Made by a program: the position numbers and the translations under genes
Notes under the pieces: model-generated
Told to the model about the DNA's origin: nothing
The model's database searches: none
What the model saw: the letters and a program-made list of their open reading frames with translations, nothing else
In this document: positions 28,080 through 52,454 of the stretch, in pieces
Layout of the letters: each line of letters opens with the position of its first letter
Numbering within the stretch: the stretch's first letter is position 1
Source: Parvibaculum sp.
GTDB lineage: Bacteria > Pseudomonadota > Alphaproteobacteria > Parvibaculales > Parvibaculaceae
Length of the DNA: 64,000 nt
Assembly: GCA_019635955.1 (NCBI GenBank)
Contig: JAHBYL010000009.1
Location: forward strand, 1 to 64,000
Reading direction: 5' to 3'

Positions 28080-28089
28080 GGCAGTCTGA

Positions 28090-29831
<1,742 letters not shown>

Positions 29832-29882
29832 ACAGGCCCCGACGGCCGCACAAACACAAGAATATCGTCGACAGGAGAGGAT

Positions 29883-30731: not shown

Positions 30732-31500
30732 CCTCGAGGCGATTGCGGCCGCTCTGGCCGAGGCACGGCGTAACCGGACCCCCATCCCCCCGGTTACGGA
30801 AACCTCCCCCGGTTTCGACGTTGCCTCGGCCTATTCGGTACAGGAAATCAACACGCGGAGGCGTCTCTCGGCGGGAGAGCGTATCGTGGGCCGCAAGATC
30901 GGGCTCACATCGCCCGCCGTGCAGACGCAACTCGGCGTGAACGAACCCGATTACGGAACGCTGTTCGATGTCGACGACGTCAGCGATGCGTCATCCGTCG
31001 TGACTGCGGAGTTGATGCAGCCGAAGATCGAGGCGGAAATTGCCTTTGTCCTGGCGAAGCCGATATCGCGAGGAAATCCGGGCCTGGATGAAGTCGCTGC
31101 GGCCATCGACTATGCCGTGGCAGCGGCGGAGATCGTTGACAGTGCCATCGCCAATTGGCGCATCACGCTAGCGGATACGGTCGCAGACAATGCCTCGGGC
31201 GCAAAGTTCGTGCTCGGCAAGGACAGGAAGAAGCTTTCCGAAATTGATCTTCACCTGGGCGGCATGGAAATGCTGCTCAATGGCAGGCAGGTTTCGGTGG
31301 GCGTCGGCGCTGCCTGCCTCGGCAATCCGCTTAATGCCGTGCAATGGCTCGCGCGCAAGATGGTGGAAGTCGGCCGCCCTCTCGAAGCCGGAGATATCGT
31401 CCTCTCCGGCGCCCTCGGCCCCATGTCCAATGCGGTGGCGGGCGACAGCTTCACCATCCATGTGCAGGGCTTCAGGCCGCTGCCTGTCGCATTCGGCTAG
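30724..31500 (+). CDS. 2-Hydroxypenta-2,4-dienoate hydratase (MhpD/BphH-like)
   Basis: A 258-residue FAH-fold hydratase. Family segments are GRKIGLTSPAVQTQLGVNEPDYG, the metal-site region QPKIEAEIAFVL with its two glutamates, and the EIVDSAIANWRI strand. It adds water to the dienoate to form 4-hydroxy-2-oxovalerate. The ATG at 30724 is chosen as the longer frame reads back into the hydrolase gene. The overlap with that gene is eight bases. Confidence 0.92.
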   Translation: MPDLEAIAAALAEARRNRTPIPPVTETSPGFDVASAYSVQEINTRRRLSAGERIVGRKIGLTSPAVQTQLGVNEPDYGTLFDVDDVSDASSVVTAELMQPKIEAEIAFVLAKPISRGNPGLDEVAAAIDYAVAAAEIVDSAIANWRITLADTVADNASGAKFVLGKDRKKLSEIDLHLGGMEMLLNGRQVSVGVGAACLGNPLNAVQWLARKMVEVGRPLEAGDIVLSGALGPMSNAVAGDSFTIHVQGFRPLPVAFG

Positions 31501-31509
31501 GAGATACGA

Positions 31510-32457
31510 ATGACGACGACAGGAGGCAAGGTTCGCGTCGCGATCATCGGTTCCGGCCATATCGGAACCGATCTGATGATCAAGATCATGCGGCTTTCGA
31601 AGCATCTCGAAATGGCGGCAATGGTCGGCATCGATCCGGCTTCGGATGGCATAGCGCGCGCTGCGCGGCTCGGCGTGGCGACGACGGCCGATGGTGTCGA
31701 CGGGCTCGTGGCTCTGCCCGGGTTCAGGGACATTGACATTGTCTTCGATGCAACCTCGGCCGGCGCCCATGCCCGCCACAACGAAGTGCTGCAGGCCCAT
31801 GGCAAGCAGGTGATCGACCTCACTCCCGCCGCCATCGGCCCTTACGTCGTACCGAGCGTCAATCTCGACAGACTGTCGACGGAACGCAATCTCAACATGG
31901 TGACATGCGGCGGCCAGGCCACGATCCCGATCGTCGCCGCCGTGAATGCGGTCGCGCCTGTACTCTATGGCGAGATCGTCGCTTCCATCGCCTCGAAATC
32001 CGCCGGCCCCGGCACACGTGCAAATATCGACGAGTTCACGCAGACCACCGCCCGTGCCATTGAAAGCGTTGGCGGCGCGGCGCGGGGCAAGGCCATCATC
32101 ATCCTAAACCCGGCCGAACCGCCGCTCATCATGCGCGACACGGTGCATTGTCTCTGCGAGGAGGCGAACCCGGCTGCAATCTCCGCGGCGATCGAGCGCA
32201 AGGTCGCCGAGGTGCAGACCTATGTGCCCGGCTATCGCCTCAAACAGGCGGTCCAGATCGAGAAGATCGGCAACAACGCGCCGCTCTATCTGCCGGAGAT
32301 GGATCGCTCCTTCGCCGGCCTCAAGGTCAGCACCTTTCTGGAGGTTGAGGGAGCGGGTCACTACCTGCCTCCCTACGCCGGCAATCTCGACATCATGACC
32401 TCGGCGGCGCTTCGCACGGCAGAGGCCCTGGCGCTGAAATGGCAGGTGGCGGCATGA
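31510..32457 (+). CDS. Acetaldehyde dehydrogenase, acylating (MhpF/BphJ-like)
   Basis: A 315-residue enzyme that oxidises acetaldehyde to acetyl-CoA. The NAD-binding motif GSGHIGTD is at 14-21 and the catalytic cysteine at 133 ([10 protein letters not shown]). The length and C-terminus ([25 protein letters not shown]) match the class that forms a channelling complex with the aldolase encoded next. The stop overlaps the aldolase start by ATGA, consistent with equimolar synthesis. Confidence 0.94.
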
Positions 32458-33485
32458 AAGAACCCGGCCGTCTTTACATACAGGATGTGACGCTGCGCGA
32501 CGGCATGCACGCGATCCGGCACAGCTATTCGCTGGATCATGTCCGCGCCATCGCCCGCGCGCTCGAAAAAGCCGGCGTCGATGCCATCGAGATCGCCCAT
32601 GGCGACGGCCTTTCCGGTTCGAGCCTCAATTACGGCTTCGGCGCCTGCACCGACTGGGCATGGATCGAAGCCGTCTGCGAAGTCGTCGAAAAAGCCGTGG
32701 TGACGACATTGCTGCTGCCCGGTATCGGCACCATCGAGGACCTGCATCGCGCGCATGACATGGGCGTGCGTTCCGTGCGCGTCGCCACCCATTGCACGGA
32801 AGCCGACGTTGCCAGGCAGCACATCGAGTTCGCCCGGCATATCGGCATGGACGTCTCCGGTTTCCTGATGATGAGCCACATGGCGCCGCCGGAAGCGCTT
32901 GCGCAGCAGGCAAAGCTGATGGAAAGCTACGGCGCCCATTGCGTCTATGTCACCGACAGCGGCGGCGCCATGACGATGGACGACGTCGCCGCCCGCCTCC
33001 GCGCCTATGACGAGGTGCTCGATCCCGAAACGCAGCGCGGCATTCACGCCCATCACAATTTGAGTCTTGGCGTCGCGAACTCCATCGCCGCTGTACAGAA
33101 TGGCGCTGTCCGCGTCGATGCGTCCCTGACCGGCATGGGCGCCGGTGCGGGCAATGCGCCGCTCGAAGTCTTTATCGCTGCCGCCGACCGCTACGGCTGG
33201 CGCCATGGCTGCGATCTCCTCGCACTCATGGACGCAGCGGAAGACCTCGTCCGTCCCTTGCAGGACCGCCCTGTCCGCGTGGACCGCGAAACCTTGAGTC
33301 TCGGTTATGCCGGGGTCTATTCGAGCTTTCTGCGCCACGCAGAAGCGGCATCGGAACGCTATGGCGTGGACACGCGCAGAATTCTTCTAGAGGCCGGAAA
33401 ACGCGCTATGGTTGGTGGTCAGGAAGACATGATCGTGGACATAGCGCTCGATCTGTCGCGGGAGAAAGAAGCGCGATCGGGCTGA
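32454..33485 (+). CDS. 4-Hydroxy-2-oxovalerate aldolase (MhpE/BphI-like)
   Basis: A 343-residue HMG-CoA-lyase-like TIM barrel that splits 4-hydroxy-2-oxovalerate into pyruvate and acetaldehyde. Arg15 and Asp16 in TLRDGMHA are the catalytic and metal residues, His19 the likely base, and GIHAHHN gives two further metal-binding histidines near 198-200. The start at 32454 gives the usual ATGA overlap; an ATG five codons earlier is the alternative. The pair yields pyruvate plus acetyl-CoA. Confidence 0.94.
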
Positions 33486-33510
33486 GCTCTTGGGAGGGAG
33501 CCGAACGGCC

Positions 33511-34485
33511 ATGACGGAGCCGTCGAAATCCGGAACGCCAGGCCGCCATCCGGCCGAAATCGTCACGTCAAGCGACGTCCGCGCCGATGTGCGGATGGAC
33601 GGCGTCTATTTCTTCCGCTCCTGGGCAGACTACCCCGTCAACAGGGCTCTCGATGCCGGCGACTTCTCCTATTGTTTCATGGTTCGCCGGGGCCGGCTCC
33701 GCCTGACGATCGACTTTCCCGAGCCGCGCACGATCGATTTGAAGCCGGGTGCCATTGTCGGCGTAAGCGGCCTCGCGCCGCATCGTTTCCATTCGCTGCC
33801 GGAAGCAGACGCCCTGCCGCTCGGCTCCTTCGAACGGGTGCCGATCACCGACAAGATCGGCGCGGACAGGGATGTCGAACTCCTCCTCGGCATGGTCCCG
33901 TCCGAAAACATTGCCCTGACCAATCTGATCATCGGCCCGCTCTATCTGAGCCGGGAAACGTCGCCCGAATGCACAAGGCGGATATGGAAGGCGGCCGAGC
34001 TTCTGGACGAGGAATTCCTCGGCGCAGGACAGGAATACGGCCAGTCGATCATCGTCCGCCGCATTGCCGAAATCATCCTGATCAACATGACGCGCTCGCT
34101 TTTGATCGAACGCGTCGAGGGCGACGCACGCGAACCGGGACCGATCAAGAACAGGGGCGTGATCACCGCGATCCGCGCTTTCCTCGAAAATCCGCTCGAC
34201 GACTGGAGCATCGACCGGCTTGCGAAACATGCCGGCATGTCACGCACGAAATTCGCCGAAGACTTCCGCCGGGTGGTGGGTCGCACTCCCATGCAGACGC
34301 TCGCGCGGCTGCGCCTCACCCTCGTGACCCGGAAGATGCTCACCGACGATCTCTCGGTGGAGGAAGCGGCGGACATGGCGGGCTACAGCTCCGCCGCCGC
34401 CTTCATCCGCGCCTTCAGCCGGGAGTTCGGCACGACCCCGCTGCAATGGCGCAAAAGCCGACTGGCAAGCGCGGAAGCGGGCTGA
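33511..34485 (+). CDS. AraC-family transcriptional regulator
   Basis: A 324-residue regulator with an N-terminal ligand-sensing region (about 1-205) and a C-terminal double HTH (about 215-315: ENPLDDWSIDRLAKHAGMSRTKFAEDFRRVVGRTPMQ, then VEEAADMAGYSSAAAFIRAFSREFGTTP). The sensing part is of the cupin-like AraC_binding_2 kind seen in catabolic activators. It lies directly after the meta-pathway genes and is probably their activator. GGGAGGGAG precedes the ATG at 33511; a TTG further upstream is less likely. Confidence 0.88.
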   Translation: MTEPSKSGTPGRHPAEIVTSSDVRADVRMDGVYFFRSWADYPVNRALDAGDFSYCFMVRRGRLRLTIDFPEPRTIDLKPGAIVGVSGLAPHRFHSLPEADALPLGSFERVPITDKIGADRDVELLLGMVPSENIALTNLIIGPLYLSRETSPECTRRIWKAAELLDEEFLGAGQEYGQSIIVRRIAEIILINMTRSLLIERVEGDAREPGPIKNRGVITAIRAFLENPLDDWSIDRLAKHAGMSRTKFAEDFRRVVGRTPMQTLARLRLTLVTRKMLTDDLSVEEAADMAGYSSAAAFIRAFSREFGTTPLQWRKSRLASAEAG

Positions 34486-34566
34486 ACCTCCGATTGCAAA
34501 GAACTGGCCGGAGTGCATCCGGCAGCTGGTGCCCGAGTGCCCCGACACTTTGCTTCTTGCTCCTCT

Positions 34567-34594
34567 GTATTGTATACAATATTACATACAATAC
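34567..34594 (+). promoter_or_regulatory. GntR-type operator, site A (beta-propeller gene promoter)
   Basis: A perfect palindrome ATTGTATACAAT (34569-34580) is followed by a second half, so the pair reads GTATAC-AATATT-ACATAC. The outer arms GTATTGTAT (34567-34575) and ATACAATAC (34586-34594) also match. The site lies about 40-68 bp before the ATG at 34635. TTGTATACAA fits the GT-AC pattern bound by GntR/FadR-type proteins. Confidence 0.72.
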
Positions 34595-34634
34595 GTCGGC
34601 GAAACGCCGCTCCAGATATGGCTCGGGAAGCAAA

Positions 34635-36539
34635 ATGAAACGCAAATGGATCGCCGCCACGGCGATTGCCCTCGGTTGCGCTGCAGGCGGCGCATTCTAC
34701 CTCCTTCAACACACGCATATGGGCCCGATCGTCGTCGCCAATATGCTGATGGGCGACATCGGGGAACCGCGTATCCTGCCCCTGCCGGCCGTCGGCGATT
34801 GGCGTCCCGCGGGAAACCGTCACCCCGCCCCGGCCGGCATGGAGGGCGCTCCTGCGGGCGGCTGGCGAGAGCGCCATGGCGACGGGCGGAACTCCGACGA
34901 AATCCTGATCGCCGGCGCGCCCACCTTCAATGCGGCCCGCATCATCGCCCCGCACGATCTCTATTTCTCGGCGGTGAGTTTCGACAAGGCGAGCAATATC
35001 TATGCGGCTCCGAGCCTCTCGGCCGACGGCACCTTGCTCCAGTCCTACGACATCGAAACGGGCACCCTTCGTTGGCGTATCGCGACGGAAGGCAGCGTGC
35101 CGGCAGGCGGCGTGCCGATCGTGCTCGAATTCGACGGTGTCGAAACCGTCTACCAGATGAGCCATGACGAGGTGATCGCTCTCACCATCGACGGGGAAAT
35201 CCTGTGGCGGAAGCCCACCGGCCTCCCGCAGGGCGAAAGCGATATCCGGCTCATGTGGGGCCCGAGCTACAATCCGAAGCTCGATATCGTCACCGGCATC
35301 AGCGGCCATGGCGACTTCGTCGCTTTCGACCGCAGCACCGGCACCCTTCTCACCCCGAACACCCAGCGCCTGCCCGGCGCGGCCTCGGCAACGCGCGAGG
35401 CGGGCCTGCCGCCCGTCCTGCTGGAGCAGATGGCCGGCAAACTTTCCGCCATCCTCAATCGCACGATCACCGCGACGCAGATCGAACAGGTCTTCCGCGT
35501 CGTCCAGGGCGACGGCATCAACATCGCCAATTATCACTCGATCGATCCGGCGACGGGCCGCATGTGGATCAGCGCCACGGCGCCCGACGAGGCCGATGGG
35601 AGCGCAGATGGCGTTTCCGAATTCGGCGCACTTTACGGCGTCGATGTCGAAAGGCTCCCGTCCGGCCAGATCGGCATCTCGGTCGGCTGCGCGGCCTATT
35701 TCGACGGCGGAAGCGCGTCGACGCCCGGCGTCAGTGCCGATGGCGAAAGGATCTATGTGGCAGATGGCCTTCGCCATCTCCTCGCTTATGACAGGGATTG
35801 CCGCAAGCTCTGGTCCATCGACACCGATGCCCAGATCGTCGCCTCGCCGAGCGTCGCGGCGGATAATGGCGAAATCTATGTGATCACCGCCACCTCGCTT
35901 CTCAAGATCGTCGATGAGGGCGCCAGTGCCGCCGTCAGGTGGTCGGCGAAGTTCGACATGTATGAGGCCGGTTTCCCCCTCGCGCAGAAGAACCTGCTCA
36001 CCGCCGCCATTGCCGCGAACGGCATCTATGCCCAGGCGGGCGTCGGCGTGATGACCATGCCGGGGAGCGAGCGCCCGGGCTTCCTGCCCTTGCGGCGCGG
36101 CGGCGCGCGGATCGACCGCGAAACGGGTGACCTCCTCTGGTACGCCGAGAGCACGGGGGATTCCGTCGCGGTCACGGAGATCGCGCCGAACGGCGCTCTC
36201 GTCATCCCGCAATCGCCTCTGCGCTCCGTTCTTGCCGCCCTCGCCTTCCCGGCGCAGGCGGGCGAACTGACGGGCGGCATCGCCGTCTTCGACGTCGCCG
36301 ATCACATGCTTCTCGCTCGTGACGCCGCCTGTGCCGCCGCCTCATATGGCGAACGGGCGCGGGCGGAGAAGGACGCACTCTCCGAAAGCTACCTGGAACA
36401 CATGGACCTGCTCGTCGCTCAGGCGCGGCAAGCGGCATCGCGCGCCGGCGGAGAGGCAGAGCGGATTGCAGGCGGCCTGCGCGCCGGCGGCGTGGCGGAA
36501 GCCTGCGCCGCACTCAGCAGGAAGACCGCCTCACGATGA
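34635..36539 (+). CDS. Exported PQQ-like beta-propeller protein, function unknown
   Basis: A 634-residue protein with a positively charged start and one N-terminal hydrophobic segment (IAATAIALGCAAGGAFYLL), so it is exported or inner-membrane anchored facing the periplasm. Repeats of the PQQ/propeller type follow (LLQSYDIETGTLRWRIAT, VIALTIDGEILWRKPTG, LLAYDRDCRKLWSIDTD, GARIDRETGDLLWYAES). No catalytic signature of alcohol dehydrogenases (vicinal Cys pair, haem CXXCH) was seen, so PQQ use is uncertain. The C-terminal 80 residues are helical and charged. A GntR-type operator precedes it, and its end overlaps the convergent gntR gene by nine bases. It could be a binding or scaffolding protein. 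Confidence 0.75.
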   Translation: MKRKWIAATAIALGCAAGGAFYLLQHTHMGPIVVANMLMGDIGEPRILPLPAVGDWRPAGNRHPAPAGMEGAPAGGWRERHGDGRNSDEILIAGAPTFNAARIIAPHDLYFSAVSFDKASNIYAAPSLSADGTLLQSYDIETGTLRWRIATEGSVPAGGVPIVLEFDGVETVYQMSHDEVIALTIDGEILWRKPTGLPQGESDIRLMWGPSYNPKLDIVTGISGHGDFVAFDRSTGTLLTPNTQRLPGAASATREAGLPPVLLEQMAGKLSAILNRTITATQIEQVFRVVQGDGINIANYHSIDPATGRMWISATAPDEADGSADGVSEFGALYGVDVERLPSGQIGISVGCAAYFDGGSASTPGVSADGERIYVADGLRHLLAYDRDCRKLWSIDTDAQIVASPSVAADNGEIYVITATSLLKIVDEGASAAVRWSAKFDMYEAGFPLAQKNLLTAAIAANGIYAQAGVGVMTMPGSERPGFLPLRRGGARIDRETGDLLWYAESTGDSVAVTEIAPNGALVIPQSPLRSVLAALAFPAQAGELTGGIAVFDVADHMLLARDAACAAASYGERARAEKDALSESYLEHMDLLVAQARQAASRAGGEAERIAGGLRAGGVAEACAALSRKTASR

Positions 36540-37262
36540 AGGACCGGAAGCCGCGATAAGCTCTTCCATCGCGTTGAGGCCGCGCTGATAGATCGCTTCG
36601 ATCAGCTTCGCGGCCTCATCGCCCTTCCCTGCCTTGATCGCTTCGGCGACCGTCTTCCAGGTCTTCGCCGATTGCACGCGCCTCTCTTGCCCGGCAACGA
36701 TGAGGTTCCGGTAGAGCCGCCAGCTCGAGGGAACCCTGTGCGCATCGTCGATCAGGCGGCGCAGGAAGCGGCTATGCGCTCCATCGCAGATGAGCTGGCC
36801 GAGTTCGATGGTCGCGTCGCGATAGTCCTGGGCCTGCATCTCCGGCGCCTTCGCGGCAAGCTCCCTGGCCGCATTGAGAATCGCCTGGCGTTCGGCCGGT
36901 GTTGCCTCTTCCGCAGCACGCCTTGCGGCCAGCGCAAGCAGCGCCGCGCGCACCTGCGCGATGGCCCTGAATTCCTGCCTGTCGTGGCGGACGATCGTCG
37001 CGCCCTTCATCCGCTCGATGATCACGAAGCCGCGCGCCTCGAGATTGTGCAGCACCTCGCGGATGCGGCCCCGCGTCACGCCGAACCTGTCCGCAAGATC
37101 CTGCTCGCGCAGTCGCTCTCCCGGCGAGAATACATCGCGCTCGATCAGCTCGATGATCTGGTCGCTGATTTCCTGGGCAGGCGGGCGATGCGCGCTTTCC
37201 TTGACGGCTGTCTTGGCCGTGCCGGCCTTGCCCCCTTTTGTGTGCTTCGGCTTCTCGCTCAC
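36531..37262 (-). CDS. GntR-family regulator, FCD type
   Basis: A 243-residue protein: a lysine-rich N-terminus, a GntR winged helix (about 30-95: SDQIIELIERDVFSPGERLREQDLADRFGVTRGRIREVLHNLEARG) and an FCD all-helical ligand domain (about 105-235). FCD members often sense carboxylic acids or acyl-CoA-like ligands. The GTG at 37262 is chosen because GGGGGAG lies just upstream; the frame is open nine codons further to a TTG. A TATAAT box and a half-operator lie ahead of it, and related operators stand before three neighbouring transcription units. Confidence 0.88.
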   Translation of the reverse strand: MSEKPKHTKGGKAGTAKTAVKESAHRPPAQEISDQIIELIERDVFSPGERLREQDLADRFGVTRGRIREVLHNLEARGFVIIERMKGATIVRHDRQEFRAIAQVRAALLALAARRAAEEATPAERQAILNAARELAAKAPEMQAQDYRDATIELGQLICDGAHSRFLRRLIDDAHRVPSSWRLYRNLIVAGQERRVQSAKTWKTVAEAIKAGKGDEAAKLIEAIYQRGLNAMEELIAASGPSS

Positions 37263-37292
37263 GTTCGCTCTCCCCCTTGATCCGTCCAACCG

Positions 37293-37315
37293 ATTATACC
37301 CAATTTTGTAGACAG
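37293..37315 (-). promoter_or_regulatory. gntR promoter with operator half-site (site B)
   Basis: On the minus strand a TATAAT -10 box occupies 37298-37293. TTGTAGACAG (plus strand, 37306-37315) differs from the TTGTATACAA operator at two positions and lies in the -10/-35 spacer. No good -35 is visible. Autoregulation is likely but the site is weaker than A, C and D. Confidence 0.5.
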
Positions 37316-37334
37316 CACAGGGCGAAACCGGATG

Positions 37335-37368
37335 AAAAAAGGCCGGTCCGCGGGGAGGCGGACCGGCC
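37335..37368 (-). terminator. Intrinsic terminator of the DUF1302-DUF1329 operon
   Basis: An 11-bp perfect stem, GGCCGGTCCGC (37341-37351) with GCGGACCGGCC (37358-37368), is followed on the minus strand by six Ts (37340-37335). It lies about 57 bp after the DUF1329 stop. Confidence 0.85.
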
Positions 37369-37424
37369 AGTATCCGTGCAGACGGGCAAGCAGTCTGCGC
37401 CGGGAGGGACGTGGCGCCGGCGCC

Positions 37425-38759
37425 TCAGCGGCGGCCGGCAATTCTCAGATAGTCGGGCGTGAAGATCGACCGGTCGATGCGGCCTTCCTGTCCTGCGAGA
37501 TAGTCGAGCGGCGCTTCCTCGTTGCGAAGCTGCGAAGCGACATAGCGGCCCGCATTGATGTCGAAGTGGAACTGCACCTGGTTGACGCAGGCCGGAAGCT
37601 CCCAGATCACGCCGATCGGCCCTTCCTGCACGCGCCACAGCTCGCCGCGTCCGTCGTAGAGTTCCGTCGCGGCAATGATCCAGCTGTCCTCGTCGCTGTA
37701 GAAGACTCGCCGGTTGTATAGATGGCGCAGGCCCGCCTTCACCGTCGCTTCGACATTCCATACGCGGTGCAGCTCGTAGCGCATCACGTCGCGTGCGGGA
37801 AAGCGCGGCTCCAGAATCTTGCGATAGGAATGCGCCTTGCTGTTCAGGTTCCAGTCGTTATAGGCGATGTAGAGTTCCTGCTTGCCGTTCAGCTTCCAGT
37901 CGTAGCGGTCGAGGCGGCCGTTATACATGTTGGCCTGGTCCGCCACGATCAGGCCGTCGAGCTCCGCAATCGGATTGTCGTACTGGAAATCCGGCAGGCG
38001 CCGCACGCGGCGCTGGCCCGGCAGGTAGCGCCAGGTCTCGCGGTCGGCATTCACAGGCTCGCGGATAAGCGTCATCGATCCTGCGATCGGCGCCGGGCTG
38101 ACGATCTTCGTGACCTGCTCGCCGCCAATGCCTTCCATGGCCTCGAAGGTCTTGAGCGCCGGATCGTGAAAACGCGAAAAGCTCGTCCGCTCGAGAATGC
38201 CGACCGAGAACCGCCCGCTGTCTTTCAGAGGCGTCGCAGTGGCGACCCGGCCTTGCGAACCGACGCCCTGGTAACGGATCAGGTGGTTCCAGACGACTTC
38301 GGCGGCAGATTGCGGCATCGGGAAAAGAAAGCCGCCCTTGCCCGCAAGAAGCTGTCCTTTGTCGTCGAGCGCGGCCTTGCCGATATTCGCCTTCGTCGCA
38401 TCGTAAACCGACTGCGGATAGCCGCACGTCCGGTGCGTCTTGTAGACGGGCATGGTGTAGCCCTCGACGCGTTCGATCAGGGCGCGCTGCCCCGCCGTCA
38501 GCTTCGCCGCGTGCTCGGCCACATTGCTCTTGTCGATCGTGAAGAGCGGCGCTTCGTTGCCGAATGGATCGGCGCGTTCGTCGCCGGGTTTCCAGCCGGC
38601 AGGCGGCGCGGTGATGCCGCCCTCCCATGCCGGGATCGTGCCGTCCGCATTGCCCGCACGCTCGGCGCCGACAGGCGTGAGCGCTGCGGGAGTTTCGCCG
38701 GCCGAGACGGGTGCCGCCTGAAGACCGACCAGAAGTGCAGCCAGAGTGATGTATTTCAT
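37425..38759 (-). CDS. DUF1329-family periplasmic protein
   Basis: A 444-residue exported protein with a signal peptide (MKYITLAALLVGLQAAPVSA) and the DUF1329 start GNADGTIPAWEGGITAPPAGWKPGD. The C-terminal part (PGQRRVRRLPDFQYDNP, YDGRGELWRVQEG) resembles LolA/LolB-like lipid-binding folds. DUF1329 genes are commonly paired with DUF1302 and found near catabolism of hydrophobic compounds in Proteobacteria; the molecular role is not established. It follows the DUF1302 gene by 30 bp. Confidence 0.88.
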   Translation of the reverse strand: MKYITLAALLVGLQAAPVSAGETPAALTPVGAERAGNADGTIPAWEGGITAPPAGWKPGDERADPFGNEAPLFTIDKSNVAEHAAKLTAGQRALIERVEGYTMPVYKTHRTCGYPQSVYDATKANIGKAALDDKGQLLAGKGGFLFPMPQSAAEVVWNHLIRYQGVGSQGRVATATPLKDSGRFSVGILERTSFSRFHDPALKTFEAMEGIGGEQVTKIVSPAPIAGSMTLIREPVNADRETWRYLPGQRRVRRLPDFQYDNPIAELDGLIVADQANMYNGRLDRYDWKLNGKQELYIAYNDWNLNSKAHSYRKILEPRFPARDVMRYELHRVWNVEATVKAGLRHLYNRRVFYSDEDSWIIAATELYDGRGELWRVQEGPIGVIWELPACVNQVQFHFDINAGRYVASQLRNEEAPLDYLAGQEGRIDRSIFTPDYLRIAGRR

Positions 38760-38789
38760 GATTTTCCTCCCTGAACGCGCGTCCAGGCT

Positions 38790-40460
38790 CTAGAACGAAT
38801 AGGAAAGGCTGACTTCGACGAAGTCCCGGTCGGTCAACAGATCGTTGATGCCGGCGCCGAAATGGTTGGTGTAGGAAATGCCTGCGCGCCACGATGCCAG
38901 GTAGGTTCCTGTGAGGCCGATGGTGACGAGCTGCCTGTCCTCGATGATCGTTGCGCCATTGGGATTGTTCGGCTGCGTCCCGTTCACGTCGTGACGGTAG
39001 GCAATGCTCGGAACGAGCGTGATGCCCGTGCCGAATGCGGCGGGATAACTAACGCTCGCCGAAAGCCGGTAGCCCCAGGCCGTACTTGTCGGATCGGTCT
39101 GGCCATCCGGCACGGCGTAGCGGATGGTCGGATCGAGATCGGGATAATGCGTCGCCACGACTTCCGTCGCGAGCGAGCCGGTGGTGGCGCCGAGCGCGGT
39201 GATCCCGCGGCCGACAATCCCGTCGCTCGGCCCGAAGGACGACATGCTGACAAGCGCCGCCTGCAGCTTCTCGACGCGGACGACGCCCGAGCTTGAATAA
39301 AACCCGCCCATCGGCCCGGTCGCGGCACCTGCCCGCGCATTGGCGATCGTCGTTGCGAACTCGAGCGGCGCCGGGTGGTCCGGCTGGTAGGAAATCTCGC
39401 CGCCGATCGAGGAGCCGAAGAGCTGGGTGTTGAAGCTCGCACCATAAAGCTCGATGTCGGAGGTATATTCCTCGTAATAGGCGACGGGCCGCGTGAAGGG
39501 CGCCACGGGAATGCGCTGTGCCCTCACACCGAGAATGGGCGTCTTCGCGTGATAGCGGAGATAGTAGAGGCCGAACTCGGCATTGATGTCTTCGGCGAAG
39601 TAACGCAGCGCCGTTCCCCACTGGCCGGAATCGGACGGGGTGATGCCCGCGATCTTCGGCATGTAGTTGGCGAAGGCGGCATTGCCGATGGCGCCGGGGT
39701 CCGAACCGAAGAAGAAGCCCTGCGAGCCCGCACCTGTCAGGTCGCCCTGCGAGAAATAGGTGCCGACGGGATCGAGTTCCGTCTTCTTCCAGTCGAACTG
39801 GTAATAGGCCTCCACGCTGAACCCGTAAGGAAGCATCGCGGCGACGCGCGCAGTCGGCGTCGGCAGCGTGGCAAGTTTCAGCTCCGAACCCGCTTGATGG
39901 ACCTTTGATACGTCCACCGGGTTGGAAGCATTGATGCCGCCGGGCGTGAACAGGGATTCGCCCCAGTTGATGGCCTGGTTGCCGAACCGCAGATCCGTCA
40001 GAACGCCGCCAATGTCGAACGTGCCGTATACATAGGCATCCAGAAGCTCGATGCCGCGCCCCGCCTGCTCGCGCGCCTCGTTCGAAAGATCGGTGCGGCG
40101 CGTCGATTCCGCATCGTTGTTGATCGCGTCGTAGAAATAGGTGGCCCGCGCAAAGGCGCCGAAGTTCCGCCATTCGAGCGAGAGTTCGTGGCTCGCGGTG
40201 GCGGCGGCAGATGTCAGGTCCCATTTGTCGAAGTTCAGGTTCCCGTCATCCTTGTTGGTGCCTGTCGGGTTGCAGCCGCCATTCGTCGTGCCGATCAGGC
40301 GGCAATCGCGGCTTTCGACGCGCATCTGAACGCCCGTCGAGATGGTCGTGTCGAAACTGCCCTTGAGTTCGCCGAACACGAAATCCGCCGCGAAGGCTTC
40401 CGCGCCGCAGCTCATTGCCGCGGCAACAGCCGCAGCGACCAATCCAGTTCTTCCTTTCAC
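38790..40460 (-). CDS. DUF1302-family outer-membrane protein
   Basis: A 556-residue protein with a signal peptide (cleavage near AEAFA-AD). Repeated amphipathic strands and a final aromatic residue (FVEVSLSYSF) point to an outer-membrane beta barrel. Family blocks GELKGSFDTTISTGVQMRV, RFGNQAINWGESLF and NASNPVDVSKVHQAGSELK are present. The start is GTG at 40460 with GGGGGAT upstream. It heads a two-gene operon with DUF1329, under a GntR-type operator about 190 bp upstream. A pore or lipid-transfer role is inferred. Confidence 0.88.
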   Translation of the reverse strand: MKGRTGLVAAAVAAAMSCGAEAFAADFVFGELKGSFDTTISTGVQMRVESRDCRLIGTTNGGCNPTGTNKDDGNLNFDKWDLTSAAATASHELSLEWRNFGAFARATYFYDAINNDAESTRRTDLSNEAREQAGRGIELLDAYVYGTFDIGGVLTDLRFGNQAINWGESLFTPGGINASNPVDVSKVHQAGSELKLATLPTPTARVAAMLPYGFSVEAYYQFDWKKTELDPVGTYFSQGDLTGAGSQGFFFGSDPGAIGNAAFANYMPKIAGITPSDSGQWGTALRYFAEDINAEFGLYYLRYHAKTPILGVRAQRIPVAPFTRPVAYYEEYTSDIELYGASFNTQLFGSSIGGEISYQPDHPAPLEFATTIANARAGAATGPMGGFYSSSGVVRVEKLQAALVSMSSFGPSDGIVGRGITALGATTGSLATEVVATHYPDLDPTIRYAVPDGQTDPTSTAWGYRLSASVSYPAAFGTGITLVPSIAYRHDVNGTQPNNPNGATIIEDRQLVTIGLTGTYLASWRAGISYTNHFGAGINDLLTDRDFVEVSLSYSF

Positions 40461-40648
40461 TCTATCCCCCCTGCAAAGCCGGCCCGGCCTTTGCCGTCAG
40501 CCCGGCGTGTCGGCCGGTGCCTGCGTTCGCGGCCCGCGCCTCCCGAATGTGTCGATTGCGGCGCCTGCGCTCCTGGAGCGATGGCTTGCCGGACGCCTCC
40601 CATAGGCCCGCGGGATTTCACCCGCTTTCGCTGCGTAAGGCAGCATAT

Positions 40649-40668
40649 GTTTACAATATTGTCTACAA
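40649..40668 (-). promoter_or_regulatory. GntR-type operator, site C (DUF1302-DUF1329 operon)
   Basis: Plus-strand reading GTTTAC-AATATT-GTCTAC at 40649-40666 has the same 12-bp periodicity as site A and shares TACAATATT...TACAA with it. The inner ATTGTCTACAAT is palindromic in its five outer pairs. It lies about 190 bp ahead of the GTG at 40460, so the promoter must have a long leader. Confidence 0.68.
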
Positions 40669-40683
40669 TTTGTTGCAGGTCAA

Positions 40684-40710
40684 GCCCCGCGATCCCTGCG
40701 ACCGCGGGGC
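40684..40710 (-). terminator. Possible weak terminator after the GDSL autotransporter gene
   Basis: GCCCCGCG (40684-40691) pairs with CGCGGGGC (40703-40710), eight bases beyond the stop at 40718. There is no T-run on the minus strand, so it may depend on Rho or merely protect the 3' end. Confidence 0.4.
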
Positions 40711-40717
40711 CTCGCTG

Positions 40718-42637
40718 TTACAGCGGGAAAGAAAGGCCGATACCGAAGGCTTCCGTCTCCCAGTCGTCGCGCGCGAAGGACCGCGAATAGCCGAAGGAGA
40801 ACGTCAGATTGTCCTTCAGCATCGCCTCGAGGCCGATGGCGACTTCGCCGTAATTGTCGTCGCCCGCCGCCGTGGCACCGCTGAAGCTGAGCAGCGGCTG
40901 CGAAGTCGGCGCCACAGTGACGCTTCGCGACCTGTCGGCGAACTCGTGGTTCCATCCGGCCGAAATACTCGGCGTCAGCGTCGCCCAGCTCGTCGAGAAC
41001 GGCATTCTGAGATCGGCGCCGATCTCACCCGTAAGGCTTTCGACGGTTTGCTCGCCCACGATGAGGTTGAAGCCGGCCGGCGCGCCCGTTTCGGAAAAGC
41101 CGTCCACCTCGACACGAGCCGCATGAAGCCCGATGCGCGGCGTCAGCGTGGCGCCGCCCGCGCCGATGTCATGCCCTATCACGAGCGAAGCGCCGAACTG
41201 CCGGGCGGTCGTCGATCCTGTCGCCACGCTTCCGGCGATCCCTGGATTGCGGCGGCTGTCGAGATCGGCATAACCCGCGGAAAGCGCGAGATCGGCAAAC
41301 GGCCTGCCGCCGGCGAAACGATAGTCCGGCGACCAGCCGCCAAGCGCCGTCACCACGATATGCGTGGAGTCGGAATTGGTCCCGCCCGTCACGCTGGAGC
41401 GGCCATGCAGCAATGTTGCCGCCGCACCCACGGACCACTCGGACGACGGCGAAAAGCGGAAGCCGACAGTCTCTGAGGTCGCCTGCGCATCCACAGCCGG
41501 ATCGAGGCTCGTTGCCGCCCGGTCCGCCAGCAGCCGTTCGGCCTGCAGGAAGATGTGCCCCCTGCCCCAGGCATTCTCGAAATTATAGGTCGTGGCGTCG
41601 CTTGCCCCCGCAGCGCTCGCGACCTGCAGCGGAACGCTGCCCCGCTGTCCCCGGCCCGCGGCGAAGCCGGAAAGTGCACGGCGCTGCGTGCGGCCGAAAT
41701 TCACAAATGCAGTGTCGCCGAGCACCGCATGCACCTGCGGCGAGGTGAGTTGCGAATAGGCGACAAGCGCGATCAGTTCATGCGTCCGCGTGGACGGATG
41801 CACAAGGTCCCACATGATGCGCTCGGCTTCCTGTTCCGGCGTGCAGTTATTGACCACGTTGATGCCCGTGCCCGAAATGCAGGGCGTGAGCGGCGTGTTC
41901 GGGTCGAAGCCGAAAAGCGCGGGATTATCCGCGAAATGGCGGATGAGCGAGGCTGAATCGATATAGATGATGTCGATGCCCAGCGTCTGCTTCGCCTCGA
42001 TATAGGCGCCGGTAATGGTCACGTTGATATTGTTGTCGGCGGGCCCGCGATAGTTGATCACCATGAAATGCCGTGCCCCGGCATTGGCCATGCGCTCCAG
42101 ACCGTCCACGATATTGGCATGGGTCGTTGCGGCATTTGGCGTCCAGCCCAGCGGCAGGGCTTCGAGGAAATCGTTCCCGCCGATGCTGAGGAAATAGAGC
42201 GCGTTCGGGTCGAGCACGCCGCCCTTCTCGTTGAGCAGGAATGTGAGCTGGCTATCCACGCCGTTCCAGTTGCGGCCCGGCCGGTTCTGCATTTCGAACG
42301 GAGGACGGAAGGGCTGGAAATTGCTGCCGGAGGCAGCACCCCCGATCGCGTAATTCTCCGGATGCCCGGACATACCGAGCATGGCCGCAAGATATTCCGG
42401 CGCGGCGGGCCCGTTCGAGAAGCGCCCGTTCGGCCGCGCCACCGTCAATTGCGCCGGATTGATCTGCCAGACTTCATAGCCGCGCTTCAGCGCCAGGCTC
42501 TGCATGCCATCGTCCACCCAGCTGTCGCCGGTGACGACGATGCTGCTGAACGGAGCTGCCGCAGCCGGTGCGGCGGCCATCAGGCAAAAGAGTGCCGTTA
42601 CCGCCGCGGAGCGGCGGATTGTCGATATCGAGACCAT
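40718..42637 (-). CDS. GDSL-type esterase autotransporter (EstA-like)
   Basis: A 639-residue protein. A signal peptide (cleavage near AAA-APF, about 28) is followed by a GDSL hydrolase domain to about 330: nucleophile Ser39 in GDSW, GGNDF near 153, and the late DLVH block with catalytic Asp and His. The leucine of the GDSL motif is replaced by Trp, which is tolerated in the family. Residues about 370-639 form an autotransporter beta domain ending in GLSFPL. Such proteins display an esterase or lipase on the cell surface. A perfect TTGTATACAA site lies about 85 bp upstream. Confidence 0.92.
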   Translation of the reverse strand: MVSISTIRRSAAVTALFCLMAAAPAAAAPFSSIVVTGDSWVDDGMQSLALKRGYEVWQINPAQLTVARPNGRFSNGPAAPEYLAAMLGMSGHPENYAIGGAASGSNFQPFRPPFEMQNRPGRNWNGVDSQLTFLLNEKGGVLDPNALYFLSIGGNDFLEALPLGWTPNAATTHANIVDGLERMANAGARHFMVINYRGPADNNINVTITGAYIEAKQTLGIDIIYIDSASLIRHFADNPALFGFDPNTPLTPCISGTGINVVNNCTPEQEAERIMWDLVHPSTRTHELIALVAYSQLTSPQVHAVLGDTAFVNFGRTQRRALSGFAAGRGQRGSVPLQVASAAGASDATTYNFENAWGRGHIFLQAERLLADRAATSLDPAVDAQATSETVGFRFSPSSEWSVGAAATLLHGRSSVTGGTNSDSTHIVVTALGGWSPDYRFAGGRPFADLALSAGYADLDSRRNPGIAGSVATGSTTARQFGASLVIGHDIGAGGATLTPRIGLHAARVEVDGFSETGAPAGFNLIVGEQTVESLTGEIGADLRMPFSTSWATLTPSISAGWNHEFADRSRSVTVAPTSQPLLSFSGATAAGDDNYGEVAIGLEAMLKDNLTFSFGYSRSFARDDWETEAFGIGLSFPL

Positions 42638-42709
42638 GTCTCCTCCCCATTTTCACCCCGCGCCTGACCGGCGCGATGGTCGGGGAGACTAACGCAAAAG
42701 ATAATTTTG

Positions 42710-42729
42710 GTATACTATTTTGTATACAA
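42710..42729 (-). promoter_or_regulatory. GntR-type operator, site D (GDSL esterase promoter)
   Basis: GTATAC-TATTTT-GTATAC (42710-42727) with the perfect palindrome TTGTATACAA at 42720-42729. It lies 73-92 bp ahead of the ATG at 42637 and shares the 12-bp repeat spacing of sites A and C. A -35-like TTGTAT on the minus strand overlaps it. Confidence 0.72.
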
Positions 42730-42747
42730 TTTTAGAGGCCGCGCCGG

Positions 42748-43953
42748 TCAAGGGTCGCCTGCCTCTGCAGGCATGGCGCCGATGCGGCCGAGGCACGCAT
42801 CGGCAAGCGCCGCAAGAGGCGTCCGCGGCAGCGTCGCGTCGAGCGTCTTCGCGGCGCTGGCGCACGCGTCCCGGAGCATGCCATCCTCCGCCGCGCCTTT
42901 AAGCGCGGCGACCGCCTTGTCGAATGTCGCGGTCTCCACGATCGCCGCACATCCCATCCGCTCAAGCGCCCGCGCCGTCATCTGGCTCTCCGCATGGATC
43001 GGCGCAATGGCATGCGGCCGCCCGGCGATCAGCGCGGCATGCGATAGCCCCGCCCCGCCATTCGAAACGACAAGGCTTGTCCGCGGCAAAATCTCGGAGA
43101 GCGGCGGCGGCCTGTCGAAAATCTCGGCGCCGCGTCCCGCCAGCAGATATTTCAGTTCGGCGCCCGCGCCCGTGACATAAGCGCTGACCGGAAGGCCCGT
43201 TTCGAGCGAGGCCCGCACCAACAGGGGAAACGAGGCAATGCCCGCATGACCGTAGAGAAAAATGCGCGGCTCGGCCGGGAGCGGCGCCGGCGAAACATCG
43301 GCTTCATAGAGTCCCGAAAGCGCGGTATCGCGCAGGGCGCCATAGGGATCGAGCTCGCGTATCGTGAAAACCGCGCGTGCATCGCCTTTGAGGAATTCCG
43401 GCAGGCGCGCCACGGGCGCAAGCCCCCGCCCGGTCAACAGCGCGTTTACATTGTCCCGCAACGCGCCCTGGATTGCCGGCGCGGCGCGATCGGCCAGAAG
43501 CGCGGGATAGATGTCGATCGCGGCAGGCGGCACAGTGAAGCCATTACCGGTCACAAGCGTCGCGATCCGGCCGCGTGCAGCGAGTACGGCTGTCGGGCTG
43601 TGATCGGCGATCACGAGCGACGGCGTTACCAGCGCAAACAGGTCGTCCCACGTGGCGACGTTCCGCCGGAGCGTGGCGGCATCTGCAAAACCATTGGCGA
43701 TCAGAACCTCGGCATAACTTGCCGTGTTCGATTTCAGCTCGCCCTGCGATGCTCCTGCCGGTGCCTGCAACACCAGGTCGCCGCTGCGCTTCAGCTCATG
43801 AAGCAGTGCCGGCTCATGCACGGCAAAGACGCAGCGCAGATCGATGCCGCGCGCTTCGGCGGCCTCATGCAGCGCCTCACCGATGCGATAGAGCGGCATC
43901 ACATGCCCGAGCCCCGCGCCCAGCTCGCCTGCCAGAAGGATCGTCGATTGCAT
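42748..43953 (-). CDS. UGT-like glycosyltransferase (GT1/MurG fold)
   Basis: A 401-residue GT-B protein. The N-terminal start ILLAGELGAGLGHVMPLYRIGEAL and the donor-site block SNGGAGLSHAALIAGRPHAIAPIHAESQMTA (about 313-343) match UDP-glycosyltransferases acting on lipids or small molecules. The acceptor is unknown. The ATG at 43953 is chosen; the longer frame crosses a terminator. That terminator sits only about 13 bp upstream, so the gene must rely on read-through or attenuation. Confidence 0.8.
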   Translation of the reverse strand: MQSTILLAGELGAGLGHVMPLYRIGEALHEAAEARGIDLRCVFAVHEPALLHELKRSGDLVLQAPAGASQGELKSNTASYAEVLIANGFADAATLRRNVATWDDLFALVTPSLVIADHSPTAVLAARGRIATLVTGNGFTVPPAAIDIYPALLADRAAPAIQGALRDNVNALLTGRGLAPVARLPEFLKGDARAVFTIRELDPYGALRDTALSGLYEADVSPAPLPAEPRIFLYGHAGIASFPLLVRASLETGLPVSAYVTGAGAELKYLLAGRGAEIFDRPPPLSEILPRTSLVVSNGGAGLSHAALIAGRPHAIAPIHAESQMTARALERMGCAAIVETATFDKAVAALKGAAEDGMLRDACASAAKTLDATLPRTPLAALADACLGRIGAMPAEAGDP

Positions 43954-43965
43954 TTTGCAGTCCCC

Positions 43966-44002
43966 AAAAGAAAACGGCCGGCAGGATGGTTCCCGCCGGC
44001 CG
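43966..44002 (-). terminator. Intrinsic terminator between the barrel protein and UGT genes
   Basis: CGGCCGGC (43975-43982) pairs with GCCGGCCG (43995-44002), the inner GGA/TCC extend the stem, and the minus strand continues TTTTCTTTT (43974-43966). It lies 23 bp after the stop at 44026 and directly before the UGT start at 43953. Confidence 0.8.
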
Positions 44003-44025
44003 CCCCGGTTCGGATGATACACCGT

Positions 44026-45438
44026 TCAGGTTTCTAGCGGCGCTATATAGCCCCCATAGGTCTTGCCGGTCTTGGCGGTAACGCTGTTCAGACCCTCGAG
44101 ACCCAGATTGTCTTCCGGGTCATCCTCGCGGTGACGGCGCTTCAGCGACTTGTTCTCGCCGAAATAGAAGCGCACGCCGATCGAGGCGCGCACATAATTG
44201 TCGTCGCCCGCGGCAGCATCCGCGAAATAGGCAAGTCCCGGCATGGCCTCGTAGCCGGGCCGGAACTCTACGTCGCCGCTTACCGTCGTATCGACGATCG
44301 GATCGTTGGCCACGCCGAGGCGCAGGCGGAAATCGTCGGTAGCGTACCAGGACACATCGACGCGACCGAAGAAGCCGTCATCGACATCGTGGCCGAACTG
44401 GTGGCCCGCCCGCGCCTGAACGGTGAAGTCGCCGAGATAGATTTCGGTTTCGCCGCCGAGCCGGATGGACTCAAGCTCCGGTCCACCCGACACATCCTCA
44501 CGCGCGTAGGAGGCGATCGCGCCGACAAGCGCGCTCGACGGGTCGCGCCAGAAGAGATGGCCGCCAACGCCCATGATTGCATTGCCGTCGGCCGAGCCTG
44601 CCGCGGCATCGGCCTGGAAGCCGAAACTGTGTGACAGCGGCACCGTCAGCGATCCGGCAAGCACGCCCGAATATTCGGTGCTGCGCGTATCGTCGTCGGT
44701 CAGGCCGCCGATAATGGCAAGCTTGCCGTTGACGGCCGACACCGCCGGCGCTTCCTGCGCGTTGGCGGCGGCGACGGTGCCGAGACCGAGCGCGAGGCCG
44801 ATGGCGGGAAGGCGTGCGGCCCGGCGCATGAGGCCGAACACCGACGCGCCCCGCGGCAGCGAGGCATCGTCGACCGGAACGAGATCGGCCGCCGGCAGGT
44901 CGAAGCCGAGCCGCACAGCCGGACGGAAGTTTTCATCGGTCACATCCGCAAGCGCCGCCTTCGCAGCGCGCTCTGCGCCGGCAAGGTCGGCAACCCGCAG
45001 CTTGCCTTCATGGAGGTAATGCGACCGGTCGAGCCGGATATAAAGGGTCCGCCAGCGCGGATTCCAGTAGATGCCGCCGATCTTTTCGCCCATCGCAGAG
45101 CGCAGCACCCGCGTGAAACACAACAGCCGGCCGCCGCGATCCACAACGCCTGTTGCATCGAACAGGATCTCTTCATGACGCATCGGCGCGAGCAGCGCCT
45201 CGATGCTGCGCGCACCCGCAAGTTCACGGTCGCTATGGCGCCGCAGCCTGACCTTCGCCACCGCGTCCGTCGCCATCAGTTTCCGGCACAATGCGTCGAG
45301 GTCGGCGCGGTTTGTGGCGCTTTGTGCGGCATGCACGGTTGCCGTTGCGCGCCCCTTGGCGCTTCTGTCGATACCGACAAGAAAGGCGCGGGCGCTCGCT
45401 CGCTGGATGATATCGCGCATGGCGACAGACGTGGTCAT
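44026..45438 (-). CDS. Two-part protein: unrecognised soluble domain plus outer-membrane barrel
   Basis: A 470-residue frame from ATG 45438 (AAAAGGAA upstream). Residues 1-200 look like a charged cytosolic domain that I do not recognise. A stretch starting MRRAARLPAIGLALG at residue 204 reads as a perfect signal peptide (cleavage near ANA-QE). The rest is rich in amphipathic strands (VPLSHSFGFQADAAAG, VRASIGVRFYFGE), like a porin-type barrel. Either translation also begins at ATG 44829, giving a 267-residue barrel, or the fusion is real and the hydrophobic part is an internal anchor. No good ribosome site precedes 44829. A terminator follows. Confidence 0.65.
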   Translation of the reverse strand: MTTSVAMRDIIQRASARAFLVGIDRSAKGRATATVHAAQSATNRADLDALCRKLMATDAVAKVRLRRHSDRELAGARSIEALLAPMRHEEILFDATGVVDRGGRLLCFTRVLRSAMGEKIGGIYWNPRWRTLYIRLDRSHYLHEGKLRVADLAGAERAAKAALADVTDENFRPAVRLGFDLPAADLVPVDDASLPRGASVFGLMRRAARLPAIGLALGLGTVAAANAQEAPAVSAVNGKLAIIGGLTDDDTRSTEYSGVLAGSLTVPLSHSFGFQADAAAGSADGNAIMGVGGHLFWRDPSSALVGAIASYAREDVSGGPELESIRLGGETEIYLGDFTVQARAGHQFGHDVDDGFFGRVDVSWYATDDFRLRLGVANDPIVDTTVSGDVEFRPGYEAMPGLAYFADAAAGDDNYVRASIGVRFYFGENKSLKRRHREDDPEDNLGLEGLNSVTAKTGKTYGGYIAPLET

Positions 45439-45578
45439 GATCTGATTCCTTTTCGACCGGGTGAACGCGAGGATGGAATTATTCCCGTCGCGCGATGCCC
45501 GGCAGATGGATAAGGTTCCATTGCCGCGGGGCTGGCGCGGCGGAGCGGACCGGAGATCGTTCCGGCCGATGCGGGGAA

Positions 45579-46613
45579 ATGTCGATGCCGGGGCGGCGCT
45601 ATCTGATCGTTCATCATGCGACCATCGGCAATGCGCATGATGCCGAGGTGCTGGCCGCGGCGCTGGCGCTGGCCGCACCCGGCGCCGAAATCGCCACCGC
45701 CTCGCTGCCCGCATGGTTCAACCGCGATTACCGGGCGGACGCGCATGATCTTGTTCCGGCCGCGAGGGGTGGGTGGGACGCGCTTTTCCTGCTGGAGGCG
45801 GCACGGCTCAACCGGCCTCTTTTCGACCCCGGATTTGCGCGGCGCTATGTCTACGTGCCTTACGTCGAATGGCTCAACGAGGACGACGAGGCCAATCTCG
45901 CGCTCGGCCTGATCGACACGGTCATCTACAAGAATGAATTCACACGCGGCATGCTCGAGGCCCTGCCCTGCATGGCGCGGGCACCAGTCCGCGTCGTCGC
46001 CGGCTGGACCTCGCGCGACCCGGGCCTGCCCGCCGATCCCTGGGAGGAGGCGCGCTTTGACCGTTTCCTCCATGCGCGCGGCATCTCGCACATGAAACAG
46101 ACGGATATCGTCGTCGAGGCCTGGCAGCGCCATCCGGAATGGCCCCCGCTCACCGTCACGGCCTATGTCCGCGACCCGCTTTCCTTCGCGGCGCCGCTCA
46201 CGATCGCTCCCAACATCACCGTCGTGCTGCGCCGTCAGAGCGAAGCGGAAATGAAGGCAACGATCGAAACGCATGGCGTGCATGTCATGCCGAGCCTTGC
46301 GGAAAGTTTCGGCCATGCGCTCAATGAAGCGCGCGCCGCCGGTGCGCTCCTCGTCACAACGGGCGCGCCGCCGATGAGCGATCTCGTCGTGCCCGGCGAA
46401 AACGGCATGCTTGTCGCGGCTGACCCGGCTGATGCCGTGCCGCATTTTCGCTCCACCGCATTTCCGGTCACCGTCGAAGCGGTCGAAGAAGCGGTTGAGG
46501 CCGTCATCGCCCTGCCGCTCAAGGCCCGCGTCGCGATGGGCCGCGCGGCCCGCGCCGCCTATGAACGCGGGCGGGACGATTTCCACCGCGCCATCGCAGC
46601 ACTGGAGCTTTGA
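45579..46613 (+). CDS. Glycosyltransferase-like protein (GT4-type, GT-B fold)
   Basis: A 344-residue protein. The C-terminal half has the GT4-like donor block HGVHVMPSLAESFGHALNEARAAGALLVTTGAPPMSDLV with its glutamates, near 230-270. The N-terminal half is atypical, so remote similarity only. The ATG at 45579 follows GGGGAA; the frame is open 28 codons upstream. It is divergent from the barrel gene at 45438 and followed three bases later by a GT2 gene, so both probably act on one glycan. Confidence 0.75.
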   Translation: MSMPGRRYLIVHHATIGNAHDAEVLAAALALAAPGAEIATASLPAWFNRDYRADAHDLVPAARGGWDALFLLEAARLNRPLFDPGFARRYVYVPYVEWLNEDDEANLALGLIDTVIYKNEFTRGMLEALPCMARAPVRVVAGWTSRDPGLPADPWEEARFDRFLHARGISHMKQTDIVVEAWQRHPEWPPLTVTAYVRDPLSFAAPLTIAPNITVVLRRQSEAEMKATIETHGVHVMPSLAESFGHALNEARAAGALLVTTGAPPMSDLVVPGENGMLVAADPADAVPHFRSTAFPVTVEAVEEAVEAVIALPLKARVAMGRAARAAYERGRDDFHRAIAALEL

Positions 46614-46616
46614 TCC

Positions 46617-47597: not shown

Positions 47598-47766
47598 ACC
47601 ACCCGTCACCCCAACACCCCTGCAAACCCGCGCCGTGCCCCGCCGCGCACCGGATTTCGCAACCATGAGACCGCGATTCACCTGCGCCCGTCACTCACCC
47701 GAAAGGGTGAGCGGGCGGAGCCGCCGGCTTTGCTATGCAAGGTTTGGAGTATCTGCGCCGGCGCAT

Positions 47767-47810
47767 GAAAAAGGCCGCGGCACGGGCAATTGGCACCCGG
47801 GCCGCGGCCT
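47767..47810 (-). terminator. Intrinsic terminator after the SDR gene
   Basis: AGGCCGCGG (47772-47780) pairs with CCGCGGCCT (47802-47810), and the minus strand continues with a run of Ts (47772-47767). It ends the acyl-CoA degradation operon, 28 bp after its last stop. The 241-bp gap from 47598 holds nothing else that I can see. Confidence 0.75.
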
Positions 47811-47838
47811 GCGCATCCGCGTATTCAGGCGCAAGCTC

Positions 47839-48669: not shown

Positions 48670-48685
48670 TTTGGATATTCCTTCG

Positions 48686-49099: not shown

Positions 49100-49109
49100 G
49101 TTCCTGTCC

Positions 49110-49553: not shown

Positions 49554-49556
49554 TTA

Positions 49557-50744: not shown

Positions 50745-50759
50745 CTCGCTCATTCCTTT

Positions 50760-52427: not shown

Positions 52428-52454
52428 CGGACATTCCTCGACTCCGGATTCCAA

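Follow-up and report, generated by a model that had tools for sequence, protein, structure and literature searches.

The operators of the FadR subfamily of GntR regulators follow the consensus NyGTM-N0-1-KACNy, with groups in which two nucleotides lie between GT and AC (MdcY, GntR and HypR, for example) and with weaker extra boxes or half-sites 7-12 nt from the centre (PMC4494728). Among individual regulators, Atu1419 of Agrobacterium fabrum is an autoregulated, VanR-type FCD GntR repressor whose 10-bp palindrome, ATGTATACAT, is built around GTATAC and is located over or next to the -10 box or between the -10 and -35 boxes (PMC7797058). NanR of E. coli acts on closely spaced repeated operators, and its N-terminal extension is needed for cooperativity (PMC8012715).

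Several protein families that concern us here have also been described in other bacteria. PP_0765 and PP_0766 of Pseudomonas putida, a DUF1302 and a DUF1329 protein, are essential for Tween 20 metabolism (PMC10866462). In Castellaniella, the DUF1302-DUF1329 pair AmeAB takes part in monoterpene metabolism, and AmeC is assigned to COG4447 (PMC6394551). Autotransporters of the EstA/EstP type consist of a GDSL passenger and an autotransporter barrel (PMC11178605).

The window, by which we mean the whole stretch of 64,000 nucleotides that was analysed, comprises bases 1-64000 of contig C191 and has a G+C content of 64%. The assembly from which it comes has 3,259,428 bases in 201 contigs and is 86.8% complete, so that motif copies beyond those seen here are possible. 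A gntR gene with a GntR helix-turn-helix (HTH) and an FCD domain (36531..37289, minus strand; Pfam GntR 52.8 bits, cutoff 27; FCD 55.9 bits, cutoff 24.3) is bordered on one side by a gene for a 634-aa beta-propeller protein of PQQ_2/BamB-like type (34635..36539, plus strand; Pfam PQQ_2 53 bits). On its other side, all on the minus strand, are genes for a DUF1329, LolA-like periplasmic protein (37425..38759; PF07044, 401.6 bits), a protein of the DUF1302 outer-membrane barrel family (38790..40460; PF06980, 526.9 bits) and a 639-aa GDSL esterase autotransporter (40718..42637; Pfam Autotransporter 140.5 bits, Lipase_GDSL 43.6 bits). COG4447, the family of AmeC, is a propeller family. As with PP_0765/PP_0766 and AmeAB, a DUF1302 barrel is paired with a DUF1329 periplasmic protein; the passages on those pairs do not mention a GntR, whereas here the pair shares putative operators with a predicted surface esterase. 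The esterase has the domain pair of a GDSL autotransporter esterase, with GDS at residue 37 and DLVH at residue 277, and so resembles EstA/EstP, yet it falls below the cutoff of the NCBI EstP equivalog (117.7 of 1000 bits).

Tandem elements are present in front of three of these transcription units: GTATACAATATTACATAC at 34572-34589 (propeller), GTTTACAATATTGTCTAC at 40649-40666 (DUF1302-DUF1329) and GTATACTATTTTGTATAC at 42710-42727 (GDSL). Each contains a primary core and, 12 bp away, a second copy. At the propeller promoter the core is an exact TTGTATACAA (34570..34579) and the weaker copy is TTACATACAA (34582..34591); at DUF1302-DUF1329 they are TTGTCTACAA (40659..40668) and ATGTTTACAA (40647..40656), and at the GDSL gene TTGTATACAA (42720..42729) and TGGTATACTA (42708..42717). 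The gntR promoter has a weak core at 37306..37315, TTGTAGACAG, which reads CTGTCTACAA on the strand of the gene, and 17 bases from the core start is a TATAAT (37293..37298, minus strand), the probable -10 box of gntR; this spacing is found in 5/5 genomes with the regulator. We propose that these sites are very probably operators of the FCD-type GntR, and that they define a local regulon of the propeller gene, DUF1302-DUF1329, the GDSL gene and gntR.

A sequence-only reading of this DNA had reported the three elements and the gntR copy, and its letters and coordinates proved correct, as did its placing of all sites between genes, also as called here, and its finding of a perfect palindrome at two of them (the exact TTGTATACAA at 34570 and 42720). 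The weaker gntR copy that it listed was recovered as a single weak core adjoining a perfect TATAAT. Its general formula GTNTAC-N6-GTNTAC is too strict: only the sites at 40649 and 42710 fit, and the propeller site, with ACATAC as second half, has two mismatches to this 18-mer and is outside the one-mismatch list. Its assignment of the GT-AC pattern to GntR-type operators agrees with the published FadR-subfamily consensus (PMC4494728). By that consensus, TTGTATACAA has the form of a FadR-subfamily operator, an AT-rich palindrome with TKGT/ACMA boxes and the arrangement GT-AT-AC (2-3 nt between), but here the second element stands at one fixed register throughout the regulon and is a full palindrome at the GDSL gene.

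An orthologue of the regulator is encoded in 4 of 26 other same-genus genomes with 59-92% identity (G021 92%, G011 70%, G024 62%, G016 59%), and the propeller gene occurs in the same 5/27 same-genus genomes as GntR. The sample with GntR is five genomes of one genus, two of which share 89% DNA identity. At the regulon locus, the closest named relative is Parvibaculum sp. DS1.004 (L036); G021 has the identical stretch. Among 385 genomes of the class, a wider search gave matches at E 1e-25 only in the own genome, G011 and the distant G175, and plasmid records gave no match at E 1e-20.

A core precedes the propeller, DUF1302 and GDSL genes in 5/5 genomes each, identical in all five at the propeller gene, and a weaker core, its position picked by eye, precedes gntR in all five. 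Even the GDSL gene of G011, located on a different contig, has the tandem element. Three relatives have an additional core before DUF1214 and DUF1254 genes (the Pfam analysis covered both genes in L071 and the DUF1214 gene in L070). Sites at orthologous loci, the check proposed in the sequence-only reading, were found in 4/4 same-genus relatives carrying GntR, and its idea of a small GntR regulon is supported by sites that are common to five genomes and co-occur with GntR. Among the window, G011, G024 and G016, core identity is 100% at the propeller gene, 90% at DUF1302, 100% at GDSL and 70% at gntR, and the ungapped flanks are 23-35% identical upstream and 29-39% downstream. The exception is the downstream flank of the GDSL core, which is 67% identical, so that conservation at this promoter is not confined to the core. 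In comparison with L036, the alignable block stops at window position 34629, and the propeller core at 34570 is retained beyond it.

A matrix was made from 15 sites of the three distant genomes G011, G024 and G016 (loci L069, L070 and L071). When the 64 kb were scanned with it, the main cores at the propeller, GDSL and DUF1302-DUF1329 promoters ranked 1, 2 and 3 (24.9, 23.1 and 21.1 bits), and the next score was 13.0. The second copies ranked 4 (propeller), 6 (GDSL) and 7 (DUF1302-DUF1329); rank 5 was a place far from the locus. When each distant locus was held out in turn, the expected promoters were the top 3 in L069 and the top 4 in L070 and L071. The gntR core is weak in the matrix: it ranked 12 in the window and 8 in L036, and in none of the three held-out loci did it reach the top 7.

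The spacing was assessed on the distant loci, with the window and L036 sites left out. Over offsets 6-60, a second copy scored best at offset 12, at 5.3-5.4 SD above the mean over offsets. In plain letters, GT---- or ----AC stands in register at 12 bp in 11/12 non-gntR distant sites; among other offsets from 7 to 40, offset 14 has 4 sites and the rest have at most 3. The gntR sites of the three distant genomes all lack a 12-bp partner. The tandem of 12-bp periodicity described by the earlier reading holds as a register at 11/12 distant sites, but its second element is often a half-site only; the GDSL second copy retains both GT and AC in 5/5 genomes.

As a control, we examined 30 of 95 DUF1302 matches, using a matrix built without DUF1302 and gntR sites. 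Upstream of DUF1302 in the five GntR loci, scores were 19.6-25.9. Of the 25 genes outside GntR loci, upstream sequence was missing for one and shortened for three, and 0/24 scored above 12.4; these 24 include three paralogues inside GntR-bearing genomes (L152-L154), with scores of 4.1, -3.0 and -2.4.

Within the window, the 18-mer with at most one mismatch gave 3 strand-hits against 0.26 expected, a number reached by 2/100 shuffles, and TTGTATACAA with at most one mismatch gave 3 against 0.07 expected (0/100 shuffles). In the 3.26-Mb assembly, exact TTGTATACAA has two copies only, 34570 and 42720, both in the window, and the exact 18-mer occurs at 40649 and 42710 only. The one-mismatch 18-mer was without enrichment genome-wide (12+10 strand-hits; reversed control 73+82), and the signal therefore resides in exact, AT-rich matches. 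On the question of chance frequency, which the sequence-only reading had named as decisive against itself, the exact motif departs from chance and the one-mismatch 18-mer does not. A near 18-mer at C117:15419 has no gene start close by, as judged from a composition-based gene pick; inspection of the other one-mismatch 18-mers of the genome scan covered C158:11545. The shorter TTGTNNACAA has 18 places in the genome, of which 15 were given loci (14 outside the window plus the propeller site). Nine of these lie in frames of coding-like composition and six do not, namely L023, L024, L028, L029, L033 and the propeller site; at the first five, inspection by eye gave no 12-bp partner in 5/5, although L033, for one, may still be a further member of the regulon.

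Across the genus, the five GntR-bearing genomes hold 13 copies of TTGTATACAA, 12 at regulon promoters and one inside a called frame (G021, C94:2882), and the 22 genomes without GntR hold 5. The reversed control has 0 copies in the five and 11 in the 22 others. A binomial comparison of the TTGTATACAA copies gave p = 1.9e-6, a value to be read in the light of related and in several cases incomplete genomes and of a motif suggested by the window itself. For a 22-base pattern derived from the relatives' sites, with at most 2 mismatches, strand-hits in these five genomes with GntR numbered 11, 8, 12, 11 and 13, and those of its control 0, 2, 4, 3 and 3. Around the 5 copies in genomes without GntR, a tblastn search with 11 proteins of the window (five from the regulon, four from its neighbours and two catabolic ones) did not find the structural genes of the regulon; at 3/5 of the copies, there were weak and partial matches to GntR (31-34%, E 1e-8 to 1e-10) about 5-6 kb away. 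Pairs of these genomes share the surroundings of their single TTGTATACAA, identical over 61 bases in G019 and G014 (L075, L078) and near-identical in G006 and G020 (L076, L082).

In the regulator itself, residues 38-99 match Pfam GntR (N-terminal winged HTH) and residues 110-235 match FCD (C-terminal). The GTG at 37262 is a likelier start than the TTG at 37289, as the latter has TATAAT just 4 bp away; the L036 gntR frame starts at the corresponding GTG. The five orthologues have much of the HTH in common, including the invariant Glu62, Arg73 and Arg77, and also a basic N-terminal extension, which measures about 37 residues if translation begins at the TTG and 28 if it begins at the GTG. None of the named NCBIfam GntR equivalogs (PhnR, UxuR, LldR, NanR, PdhR and others) was over its cutoff, the best being phnR_burk with 67.6 of 271.5 bits. 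The AlphaFold model has a mean pLDDT of 67, and Foldseek matched it to FCD/FadR folds, Atu1419 among them with about 19% identity in the alignments, at TM-scores of about 0.3-0.6 and rmsd of 8-14; with this pLDDT and low-quality superposition, the model supports the fold class only. Designed PPR proteins that topped one structure match list were set aside as spurious matches to a repeated helix pair.

The metal-binding FCD subgroup (Atu1419, TM0439, PS5454, LldR) has a ligand pattern of Asp/Asn and three His (PMC7797058). In an alignment to 7c7e, the first three ligand positions of our GntR are Thr160, Gly164 and Trp211, and the third His position is uncovered; the subgroup's ligands were not found by sequence alignment, which suggests that its FCD domain is metal-free. 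In this it differs from Atu1419, in which Asn and three His form a zinc site; Atu1419 also controls hydroxycinnamate genes, and looping connects its palindromes over a distance of 190 bp, as against 12 bp here (PMC7797058). The two share a 10-bp palindrome around GTATAC at similar promoter positions and, as we propose for this GntR, autoregulation. With NanR, our regulator shares the GntR/FCD fold, repeated operators and an N-terminal extension, but NanR recognises GGTATA in direct repeats that are separated by less than half a turn, not palindromes at 12 bp (PMC8012715), and cooperativity between neighbouring copies is in our case an inferred property. Cores TTGTAGACAA (L037:9836, Shimia aestuarii) and TTGTCTACAA (L124:2264, a genome of the same class) were also seen near distant FCD GntR genes, at about 155 bp from the portion that matched; the motif is thus not private to the GntR of the window, and operators of this type may be a recurring feature of FCD genes under autoregulation.

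Computation established that the sites are conserved, where they are placed, that they are spaced at 12 bp and that they occur alongside the regulator, and from co-occurrence and conservation we infer with high confidence that the GntR of 36531-37289 binds the sites. It is most improbable that the elements are mere AT-rich promoter boxes or chance palindromes: TACAAT does resemble a -10 box and the promoters are AT-rich within a GC-rich window, but identical cores amid diverged flanks, the absence of the core before all 24 other scored DUF1302 genes and a 12-bp register found in the relatives alone speak for operators. There is a small chance that gntR is only a target and that another regulator, of AraC type or an unlinked FCD protein, is the binder, since further FCD genes seem to own like cores and the five genomes surely encode additional GntR proteins. 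The exact core is nevertheless found mostly in the five GntR-bearing genomes, in all of which gntR is embedded in the regulon. The AraC-type protein (33490-34485) had no tblastn match at E 1e-8 in 15-20 kb around the four relatives' loci and is therefore not a shared rival.

If GntR is the binder, it might still act as an activator or dual regulator, an unlikely reading although somewhat less so than a different binder. The core-to-start-codon distance varies between units (43-58 bases for propeller, 146-199 for DUF1302, 81-84 for GDSL), and no convincing -10 box was identified at the propeller and GDSL promoters, both of which would suit activation. Repressor-type positions are seen at the other two promoters: in 5/5 genomes the gntR core is just upstream of TATAAT, and in 5/5 the DUF1302 core follows a -35-like CTTG by 16-18 bases. 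These boxes place the cores within the likely polymerase footprint and favour repression by occlusion; GntR therefore probably represses rather than activates.

Under repression by GntR, a dimer would occupy the 10-bp palindrome TTGTATACAA, and a second dimer or a further subunit would occupy the weaker copy or half-site at a distance of exactly 12 bp, or about one turn of the helix. GntR would block the propeller gene, DUF1302-DUF1329 and the GDSL autotransporter, and more weakly itself, until an inducer linked to the substrate freed the promoters; this inducer may be a product of a hydrophobic ester. The weakest step is the function of the targets, for which we tentatively suggest a surface esterase and uptake module for hydrophobic esters; a product of such an ester as the inducer class is a similarly tentative assignment. 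The full picture is a speculative one, and we consider it rather doubtful as a whole: a metal-free FCD regulator whose two dimers would sit side by side on a strong and a weak palindrome, at a distance of one helical turn, would owe cooperativity to its basic N-terminal tail and sense an acyl or other hydrophobic ester product, and it would be the first switch known for a module that combines a surface esterase, DUF1302/DUF1329 and a propeller protein.

The surroundings of the regulon differ between the window and L036. The window has about 10.6 kb (23997-34628) with BphB-like, extradiol-dioxygenase and HsaD-like genes and the AraC-type regulator, where L036 has 95 bp (12647-12741) directly adjoining the propeller promoter. 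About 5.1 kb with a glycosyltransferase-like gene (42736-47834) correspond to 96 bp in L036 (4449-4544), so that an insertion or deletion borders the regulon block at either end. At 47839-52682 follow short-chain dehydrogenase, MaoC-like, FAS1-type dehydratase, thiolase-like and acyl-CoA-ligase genes; this set adjoins the GDSL gene in L036 and is close to the regulon in L069, and a linked beta-oxidation route beside the regulon is possible.

In the open-licence literature searched, we found no description of this regulon and nothing joining GntR, the FadR subfamily and GTATAC; of the papers with the literal TTGTATACAA, none, by their listing, concerns a GntR operator. The regulon is well supported and is of a known kind, an ordinary type of gene control. 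It unites two widespread families of unknown function, DUF1302 and DUF1329, with a beta-propeller protein and a surface esterase, whose joint role becomes approachable via a single regulator. It also offers a clean example of the extra half-site of GntR operators, kept at a fixed 12-bp register throughout a regulon.
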